From positions 1-33,418 of the forward strand of contig CAMUZD010000002.1 in NCBI GenBank assembly GCA_947165115.1: DNA of 33,418 nt. The letters run 5' to 3'. The position numbers and the translations under genes were made by a program. Source of the DNA: an uncultured Clostridia bacterium. GTDB taxonomy: Bacteria; Bacillota; Clostridia; Oscillospirales; Acutalibacteraceae. Below are positions 713-6,629 of the stretch, piece after piece (within the stretch, counting starts at the first letter, position 1; each line of letters starts with the position of its first letter). The notes below the pieces were generated by a model, which searched no databases, had not been told where the DNA came from, and saw only the letters and a program-made list of their open reading frames with translations.

Positions 713-916
713 TTATTTCTGCTGGTTTTTATTCCGCATCGACTCGAAAAATTCGTCGATCCACTTGTTGCATTTCACGAAATCGCCGTTTTGAAGGGCT
801 TCCTTGATGTCAGCGGGAGCGTTTTTTTCAATTACGGCGCGCTGTTTGTCGGAAAGTTTGTTGTAGTCTTTTTTTATCGGAGTCGCGCTTGTGTTGAAAA
901 CATTGACAACACGCAC
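713..916 (-). CDS. hypothetical protein (67 aa), stop abuts the recN stop
   Basis: ORF with coding-like composition, convergent with recN; no recognised family. Confidence 0.45.
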   Translation of the reverse strand: MRVVNVFNTSATPIKKDYNKLSDKQRAVIEKNAPADIKEALQNGDFVKCNKWIDEFFESMRNKNQQK

Positions 917-928
917 GCAAAATTAGAC

Positions 929-971
929 TTTTTTCTCACCAAGTCCAAAATTTAGATTTTATGAGAAAAAA
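929..971. repeat. inverted repeat, 10-bp perfect arms TTTTTTCTCA / TGAGAAAAAA with 23-bp spacer
   Basis: Direct reading: TTTTTTCTCA at 929-938 and TGAGAAAAAA at 962-971; located between the Dam stop and the 67-aa ORF. Confidence 0.7.
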
Positions 972-1762
972 TTAAAACAACGTCCCTTGAATTCCTTCCT
1001 CAAAATTCCAAACCAAAAGCTCGCCGAAATCTTTTGCGCTCTTATTGTTCAGCGAACATCGGCGGCTAAAAGTCTTCTGCTTATAATCCTTGTAGAGCTC
1101 GCAAATTTCCGGACAAGCATTGTAGCTTAAAATCCAACGTGCCTTGCTTCTCTTCAACAATTCCGCCAACCGCTCATGGTCAAAGCTGCCGGCCTTGTAG
1201 TAATGCTCGGTTTCAAAATACGGCGGATCCAAATAGAAAAACGTGTCCGGCTTATTGTACCGTTCAAGTAAAACCGAATAATCCAGGCATTCAATGTTCG
1301 TTTTCTGAAGCCGTTTCGAGATCGCAATTATCCGCGCCTGAATGCTTTCAACCGAGCTCAGGTTGTTCGGTGCATAGCTCGGATTCACAAGCCGGGCACC
1401 AAAACAGAAATTCAACAAGTATAAAGTTCTAAATGCTTGAAAATATTGATGATTTTCTTGGGGGGGGTAATATTCCTTATCCTATTAAAAAAGGTGCGCG
1501 AGCTGAAAACGAAGTTGAACTCGCGGGCAAACTCTTCTCCGTGTTCCTTGACAACCCTGTAAAGGTTGATGATTTCGTCATTCAGGTCATTGATGATTTC
1601 GCACGGAGCCCACTTTTCGCGGGCAAAGTAAATCGCACCGCCGCCGAAAAACGGCTCGACGTAAGTGCTGACATCTCCTGGAATCATCGGCACGATCCAA
1701 GGCCGCAAAGCCTTTTTCCCGCCGATATACGGGAACAAATAATCGATCGGTATAATTTTCAT
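972..1762 (-). pseudogene. Dam-type (D12 class) adenine-specific DNA methyltransferase split into two ORFs (1412-1762 and 972-1418) by a C8 tract; possible phase-variable OFF state
   Basis: N-part YIGGKKALRPWIV...VEPFFGGGAIYFA; C-part FFYLDPPYFETEHYY (DPPY motif). One added C at 1460-1467 would give ...TPPQENHQYFQAFRTLYLLNFCFGARLVN..., joining both halves. Confidence 0.85.
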
Positions 1763-1771
1763 AGTCTCTCC

Positions 1772-2692
1772 TTACCCGATTTCGGCCGTACTGGTAAAAG
1801 AACCGGCTGAAATGTTGTGGGTGATTTTCGTTACTCTGTAGGTGCCCTCAAATTCCGGCCGGACACCCGTCAGCTTGATTTTTGCTCCGGCATAAATGTC
1901 AGGGCGGCCTTTGGAAAACTGAATCATTCCCGAAAAGGCACTTTTTTGCAGTGATTCCAGCTTTTTTTTCGCGTATCCTTTCGCTTCGGTCGCTGACTGA
2001 AAGCCGCCCTTGCCCTGGAATCGCGGTGTTTCAACACCGACAACAATTTTGTTATAGTTCCCTGTTTCCTTGTCAAAATAAATCGCCTCGACCGACTTAT
2101 ATGTCGTTCCGGCAGTCTTCAGGTGGCCGCTCGCAATTTCCTTTCGATCGACCTCGAAAACGTCCGGAGAATCGTCGAAAAAAATAATACAGCCGTTTTT
2201 TAGAGCGATATCCGCGCCGTTCTCGTTTGCGATCCGGCGGAGAAACGCCAAATCAGATTCATTGTTTTGAGCGTAAACCTCGAAAAACGGATCGTTATCC
2301 AGTTTGAATTTTGATTGCAGGTTGTAATCGGCGGCAATCTGCTCGCCAATGGCCGACAGTTTCACCTGCTGCCACGTCCTGATTTTGTTTTTGCTCTTAA
2401 TGTCCGAATAAGCCGCCACCGCCTTTGCCTTGACCGTAACCGCGCCGTTGAAAAGATTGCAGCTGACCTCGTTTGTCGTGAATTTTCCCAGTAAATTCAG
2501 CTTGTCGTCGTAACCGGCTGAAAAAGTGATTACTGTTCCGGCCTTCGGAAGAGACGATAAATGCGACAAGTTCAGATCGAGGGTGTCGGTTCCGTTCTTG
2601 ATTTCGTCCGTGATCGTGGCCGACTCAAAATATTCCTGAATTTCTTTATCGATGTTTTTATTGTTGCTTGAAATCGAATAATAGGCTTTCAT
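1772..2692 (-). CDS. phage late control / tail protein D (P2 gpD-like)
   Basis: 306 aa, located after U and X; features such as AQNNESDLAFLRRIANENGADIALKNGCIIF typical of gpD-like proteins. Confidence 0.8.
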   Translation of the reverse strand: MKAYYSISSNNKNIDKEIQEYFESATITDEIKNGTDTLDLNLSHLSSLPKAGTVITFSAGYDDKLNLLGKFTTNEVSCNLFNGAVTVKAKAVAAYSDIKSKNKIRTWQQVKLSAIGEQIAADYNLQSKFKLDNDPFFEVYAQNNESDLAFLRRIANENGADIALKNGCIIFFDDSPDVFEVDRKEIASGHLKTAGTTYKSVEAIYFDKETGNYNKIVVGVETPRFQGKGGFQSATEAKGYAKKKLESLQKSAFSGMIQFSKGRPDIYAGAKIKLTGVRPEFEGTYRVTKITHNISAGSFTSTAEIG

Positions 2693-2889: not shown

Positions 2890-3292
2890 GGTACTCCTCA
2901 ATTTCAAGAGCGAAATCAACCTTTTGTGCCGTTCCGTCGCTTAGAAAAAATGTTTTGTCGAACTCTGCCGAAAGAACAACTACTTTCCCGGCAAATGTAC
3001 CGTCGCCCAGAATCATTGTTACCGGTTCCTGCTCCCTGACTATTTTCTTCAGTTCCTTCTGGCCGTTTTCCTTGCTTAAAGGTTTTACGCCGACCAAAGC
3101 CGGAAGGTAAAATCCGGCGATTGAAAAAGAACTTGTCGCTTTTTTTGTTGCCTGATAAAAAGGATAATATCCGGCTCTTTCCGACTTCGCCCATCCGCCG
3201 TTGACTTTTTCTTTCAGCTTGTTGAATGCTGTTCCGAAAGTCGAAAACACAAAATCTCCCAGACTGATCAAATATTCTGAATTAGTAGGCAT
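2882..3292 (-). CDS. tail protein U-like (P2 gpU)
   Basis: MPTNSEYLISLGDFVFSTFGTAFNKL...; position between tape measure and X; start taken at 3292. Confidence 0.7.
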   Translation of the reverse strand: MPTNSEYLISLGDFVFSTFGTAFNKLKEKVNGGWAKSERAGYYPFYQATKKATSSFSIAGFYLPALVGVKPLSKENGQKELKKIVREQEPVTMILGDGTFAGKVVVLSAEFDKTFFLSDGTAQKVDFALEIEEYHE

Positions 3293-6113: not shown

Positions 6114-6629
6114 TTAGCCGCCTATATTGATCTTCGTCTGAAGATTTCTGTCGACACCGCCTATCGCTACGATGTTGAGCAGCTTGTCGATGTTGAATAC
6201 AGGTGCGCCGCCGACTATAAGATCGTAGTGAGTTACACTCATCTTATAGGTCGATTTGATTTCTTCGCCTTTTTTGGTGTCTATCGGAATTTCGATGATC
6301 GAACCGCCCAGTGCCGCCACGACCGGAATTTCCGCCGGGCCGTCTTTTATTGAACCGCGGAAAGTGAAAAGAGTTCCCGAAGTCAGAAAGTCAACGCTTC
6401 CTATGAGTCCCATCTTGATCGGATCAATGTCACCGAAACTGATTTCAGCTTCAAGTTTGTCAAGATTGACAGGGATATCATACTCTCCTGCACCGCCACC
6501 GTTGTCAATGGTTACAGTTTTGAATTTGACAGTCGGCAGCGTAACCTCTTTGACTTTTCCGAGGTTTCCGACACCATTCACCGCAACATCAAAATCCTTC
6601 AAAATCTGCGGATATACCGAAACAACCAT
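6114..6629 (-). CDS. major tail tube protein (P2 FII-like)
   Basis: 171 aa, YPQILKDFDVAVNGVGNLGKVKEVTLPTVKFKTVTIDNGGGAGEYDIPVNLDKLEAEISFG; follows the sheath. Confidence 0.85.
   Translation of the reverse strand: MVVSVYPQILKDFDVAVNGVGNLGKVKEVTLPTVKFKTVTIDNGGGAGEYDIPVNLDKLEAEISFGDIDPIKMGLIGSVDFLTSGTLFTFRGSIKDGPAEIPVVAALGGSIIEIPIDTKKGEEIKSTYKMSVTHYDLIVGGAPVFNIDKLLNIVAIGGVDRNLQTKINIGG

Follow-up and report, generated by a model that had tools for sequence, protein, structure and literature searches.

A candidate phase-variable adenine methyltransferase gene at the right end of a Mu-like prophage

The window analyzed here, a stretch of 33,418 nucleotides, starts with a fragment of the host gene recN (1-672) and carries a prophage from position 904 onward. 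The features on which our analysis is based are the following:

904-971, minus strand: right end of the phage, 68 bp from the end of the methyltransferase gene to the host junction (placed by the limits of homology)
972-1762, minus strand: predicted D12-class (Dam-family) N6-adenine DNA methyltransferase gene, in two frames (PF02086 on both halves)
972-1460, minus strand: C-terminal half of this gene with DPPY, which needs a frame change at the tract (PF02086; pN/pS)
1412-1762, minus strand: N-terminal half with the FPYIGGK and FFGGG motifs, 116 aa at C8 (open reading frame)
1460-1467, minus strand: frame-breaking C8 tract, the proposed slippage switch (sequence; lengths vary in homologues)
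1766-1773, minus strand: Shine-Dalgarno AAGGAGAG upstream of the ATG at 1762 (sequence)
29388-30308, minus strand: AAA ATPase, Mu B / TniB-like (PF13401, PF05621)
30313-32340, minus strand: Mu-type transposase (A), a marker of transposable phages (PF09299, Mu-transpos_C)

Its transposase and B ATPase place this element among the predicted Mu-like transposable phages, and it further encodes a Mu F protein and portal, minor tail, and baseplate-hub proteins. The phage starts with TG at 904: similarity to a related phage in G068 begins at this position, and host similarity to the reindeer MAG G070 ends at 903. The left end and the target duplication lie beyond the contig. Because the methyltransferase gene ends 68 bp inside the right end, it is the last gene of the phage, in agreement with the late-end position given in the first-pass annotation. 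The portal and Mu F genes (17136-21394) are on the plus strand and the other late genes on the minus strand. A second methyltransferase, of the C5-cytosine type (23213-24763), is intact and has no G/C run of at least 7.

The recN fragment is 97% identical to recN of G070, as against about 29% identity to recN of the bin that holds the contig (G000:C36:4304-4942; L105). Hence, the contig was mis-binned. This fits with the observation that genomes of the same genus as the holding bin contain only distant relatives. By its recN, the host is close to the reindeer MAG Reindeer_2_mag_13, in the lineage that comprises G068-G070 (UBP6_UBA1209 being one of them), and not the holding bin. Relative to G070, the window's recN has an 11-bp deletion at 634-635, real or an assembly error, that shifts the frame of the last ~30 codons.

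The run at 1460-1467 is a G8 on the plus strand, i.e., a C8 on the coding minus strand. In frame 0 the methyltransferase stops 14 codons past the tract, giving 116 aa (1412-1762) that end in ...ITPPKKIINIFKHLELYTC*. Past the tract, another frame reads QENHQYFQAFRTLYLLNFCFGARLVN...DPPY... and runs to a stop at 972. The N half matches positions 1-92 of PF02086 and the C half positions 146-244, with scores of 63.8 and 43.1 bits, both above the gathering cut-off of 22, and DPPY is at its conserved place. The gene is thus predicted to encode a D12-class N6-adenine methyltransferase. A tract of 9 (or 6) would join both frames. The first-pass annotation had proposed that the C8 splits a Dam-type methyltransferase, which the sequence, the frames, and the PF02086 matches on both halves confirm, and that one C more or two fewer would join the halves, which holds for lengths 9 and 6.

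The joined reading, a paper construct made for searches only, matches 2dpm (DpnM) and 7m6b across nearly its whole length. It scores 108.2 bits with TIGR00571 (Dam subfamily), below the NCBIfam cut-off of 114.85; the predicted enzyme is hence a relative of Dam that lies below this cut-off, and GATC specificity is not implied. GATC is not avoided in these phages (window 904-33418 and relatives), which neither shows nor excludes GATC methylation. Most of them contain fewer GTAC, GGCC, ACGT, and CTAG sites than expected, which may be a trace of host restriction.

Five further phages with close homologues were identified in scans of IMG/VR and GTDB genomes, the IMG/VR records G072 and G073 being counted once since they are identical over 18.7 kb. 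All have a tract at the homologous codon, and in this comparison, of the kind proposed in the first-pass annotation, its length differs. It is C8 in L022, C10 in L024 and L025 (the C10 state being found twice, in two records of one phage), C9 in L021, and C8-IS-C9 in L023. L020 has an interrupted tract of 8 nt, CCCCTCCC, which is point-mutated and probably locked. Including the window, the six phages thus show C8, C8, C8 with an IS, C9, C10, and 8 interrupted. The phages of L022 (G070) and L025 (G073) are 97% identical across 10.9 kb and have C8 and C10, respectively. Within these 10.9 kb, no other clean short coding indel separates the two, and the remaining gaps cluster inside diverged patches. 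A homopolymer that breaks the frame of a coding sequence is one mark of a contingency locus. Length polymorphism between close relatives is another, and the assembled sequences of these phages show both. L021 is the only copy in register, and it has lost DPPY via a 13-nt deletion; among the six phages sampled, no copy combines an ON frame with an intact catalytic half.

The element inside the poly-C is IS3-like, with TGTTCTGACC...GGTCAGAACA ends, and is flanked by C8 and C9, one on each side (L112:1501-2902, i.e., G071:C1:32245-33646). On its left, the 10-bp end occurs twice. A related IS, located in G070:C95, has a terminal C8 of its own.

Dinucleotide shuffles of the window give G8/C8 runs 0.57 times on average, and a single such run is therefore unremarkable by itself. 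The methyltransferase tract is the sole G8/C8 in the 2.07 Mb of the holding bin, which is not the phage's host. As this bin proved not to be the host, the poly-G counts were redone in the bins of three relatives, which have 1-3 distinct G8/C8 runs each. Outside the methyltransferase, these runs lie in an intact phosphorylase-like gene, at the end of an IS, or where no gene is clearly recognizable, and thus do not point to a cell-wide contingency system. In these phages, the G/C runs of at least 7 are the methyltransferase tract and one G7 near the end of G071, with no others. CCC is a rare codon in 16 genes of the window, where it accounts for 24 of 228 Pro codons. Of 44 fourfold sites that can be compared among four representatives, only 4 have an invariant C. 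Divergent homologues nevertheless share the poly-C at one codon, with synonymous sites otherwise close to saturation. Judging from these comparisons, the recurrence of the tract at one codon, with CCC rare and the lengths differing, is not due to chance.

To assess selection on the half downstream of the break, we used Nei-Gojobori counts. Divergent copies have pS of 0.56-0.86 versus pN of 0.07-0.09 in this C half, i.e., pN/pS of 0.08-0.19 (about 0.1), and the C halves of the close OFF copies L022 and L024 differ by 19 synonymous and 7 nonsynonymous changes. By these estimates, the half beyond the tract is under strong purifying selection, and the signature of purifying selection shows in both halves of the methyltransferase. 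An untranslated half would not show it, and the gene is therefore not a simple dead gene. L022 and L024 have identical N halves but differ in the C half, which weakens the evidence from this pair because the C halves are possibly recombinant: recombination may have imported selected C halves that had diverged elsewhere. Between the methyltransferases of the window and of L020, identity is limited to the first part of the C half.

A survey of 1.02 Mb of phage sequence, from 145 loci that surround D12 methyltransferases and in some cases overlap, identified three distinct G/C runs of at least 8. In L028, a G11 (6360-6370) splits a D12 methyltransferase located between terminase and portal. This is a Mu-like phage (Portal_Mu, Mu_F, Mu-like_Pro), for which a DDE_2 search of the record was silent, the controls being equally silent; the G11 has an equal length in a second contig (L143:199-209). 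In L217, a G9 (3205-3213) close to the end of the methyltransferase puts ...RYKELLVKNY out of frame, and the relatives L234 and L235 have the in-frame ending ...YKELIIKNY. Two of the three runs thus fall within methyltransferase genes, whose share of the surveyed sequence is roughly one tenth. Each of the two disrupts the reading frame, and does so elsewhere in the gene than the window's tract. In these small numbers, this suggests convergent evolution of frame-breaking runs in phage D12 methyltransferases. The third run, a C9 that follows a D12 methyltransferase gene at a distance of about 110 nt (L185:3415-3423), is possibly regulatory or a matter of chance. L026, initially a candidate split methyltransferase, was rejected because it consists of two adjacent intact methyltransferases.

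The reading that best accounts for these data is slipped-strand phase variation of a phage adenine methyltransferase, to which we assign a probability of about 0.68. The first-pass annotation had named the gene a candidate for it, and the length polymorphism, the purifying selection, the position in the phage, and the two further tract-bearing D12 methyltransferases all argue for this candidate. The methyltransferase gene would be a contingency locus of the Mu-like prophage, where slipped-strand mispairing during replication gains or loses C's at the poly-C. At length 9, which is in register, the gene would yield the complete D12 N6-adenine methyltransferase, about 263 aa long; at length 8 or 10, the product would be an inactive N-terminal fragment of 112-116 aa only. 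The phage population would then be a mix of methylating and non-methylating members. We infer that the lengths change by slippage within populations and that the joined protein is active, along with the timing of expression, the methylation target of the enzyme, and the reason why switching pays. The benefit might lie in bet-hedging, with host systems that cut either unmethylated or methylated DNA, or in a switch of host gene expression in the lysogen.

The poly-C could instead be a mere mutational hotspot, the methyltransferase having been lost recently and independently in each lineage without any useful switching. All copies are indeed broken as assembled, and some lineages of the tract-bearing gene are, to judge by their lesions, decaying. 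The first-pass annotation had held that a tract fixed at C8 together with further inactivating mutations would indicate a simple pseudogene. This applies in part to some lineages, those with the locked, interrupted tract (L020), the IS (L023), or the lost DPPY (L021), and is opposed by the selection on the C half. Plain decay would explain these three lesions in single lineages, but not the conservation of the second half, which is strongly purified although out of frame. Nor would it lead one to expect that lesions concentrate in the tract instead of spreading over the 790-nt gene, that the run persists at near-saturated synonymous divergence, or that the same kind of tract occurs in two other phage D12 methyltransferases. 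We consider decay as the general explanation rather unlikely. A further possibility, which we regard as quite improbable, is recoding, in which ribosomal frameshifting, or slippage of the transcribing polymerase, at the C run would yield the full-length protein. This would explain why selection is seen although no copy is intact; at C8, the sequence C CCC CCC with CAA after it could formally serve as a -1 slippery site, and transcriptional slippage could work on both C8 and C10. However, a -1 shift suits C8 but not C10, C9, or CCCCTCCC, the downstream RNA folds no better than shuffles, the purine stretch upstream of the tract is not conserved, and the homologue sequences contain no conserved Shine-Dalgarno-like element for recoding.

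Homopolymer length is a common class of error, and the contig comes from a draft, mis-binned MAG, so that an assembly or sequencing error had to be considered. It is very unlikely, because independent assemblies agree on out-of-frame states (C8 or C10, with C10 in two records of one phage) and because an IS and a point mutation, the lesions seen in two of the tracts, do not belong to this class of error. Methyltransferases of other classes can consist of two chains, e.g., M.AquI and M.EcoHK31I, and the two halves might by analogy be made as separate cooperating chains. The start that the second half would need is not conserved (the window offers TTGs without support, L022 has none, and L024 has a different TTG upstream), and most phage homologues examined have a single chain, which makes a split enzyme extremely improbable.

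If phase variation of the methyltransferase is real, the methylation state of the phage would be a heritable, randomly switching trait that affects survival of restriction or control of host genes. More tentatively, and at somewhat less than even odds, separate temperate phages may have independently evolved poly-G/C switches at different positions of D12 methyltransferases, making phase-variable adenine methylation a recurrent strategy. Each burst would then release virions with and without methylation, which could escape opposite kinds of host restriction; alternatively, each lysogen population would carry a phage-borne phasevarion.

Several known systems share parts of this arrangement. The Type III Mod phasevarions, such as ModA of Neisseria and ModM of Moraxella, are N6-adenine methyltransferases switched ON and OFF by repeat tracts (review PMC13076061). 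The proposed switch has this principle in common with them, but theirs are chromosomal restriction-modification genes, whereas the window's is a small orphan D12 enzyme in a transposable phage with a C homopolymer. In Campylobacter phages, polyG tracts reportedly concern receptor-binding proteins. The study of these hypermutable tracts (Sorensen et al. 2021, Cell Rep 35:109214, as cited in PMC10877375) deals, according to its title, with phenotypic diversity and evasion of bacterial resistance. A homopolymer contingency locus in a phage genome would be common to both cases; judged by that title, theirs is not about DNA methylation, and the hosts differ. Dam-type genes occur near the right end of several other Mu-like phages. 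Those of Pseudomonas phage B3, Shewanella phage MuM16-1, and Campylobacter Mu-like phages are likewise D12 methyltransferases in a Mu-like phage, but the records examined hold one uninterrupted gene without a G/C tract. Phage Mu itself has a DNA-modification gene at its right end, mom/com; the position is shared, but enzyme class and control differ, since Mom falls outside the D12 methyltransferases and is subject to regulation; it is not known to be switched by a homopolymer. PamA, a Dam-like methyltransferase of a Staphylococcus aureus prophage that alters host gene expression (PMC13076061), is also a prophage adenine methyltransferase, for which that review does not describe phase variation. 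Our search of the open-access PMC literature, with most subscription papers outside its scope, returned no report of a phage-borne methyltransferase switched by a homopolymer. Phase-variable methyltransferases are thus already known as bacterial genes, and phage homopolymer contingency loci for other functions. Our best reading is that the locus described here combines these known parts in a new place, as a phage-borne methyltransferase with a putative homopolymer switch.
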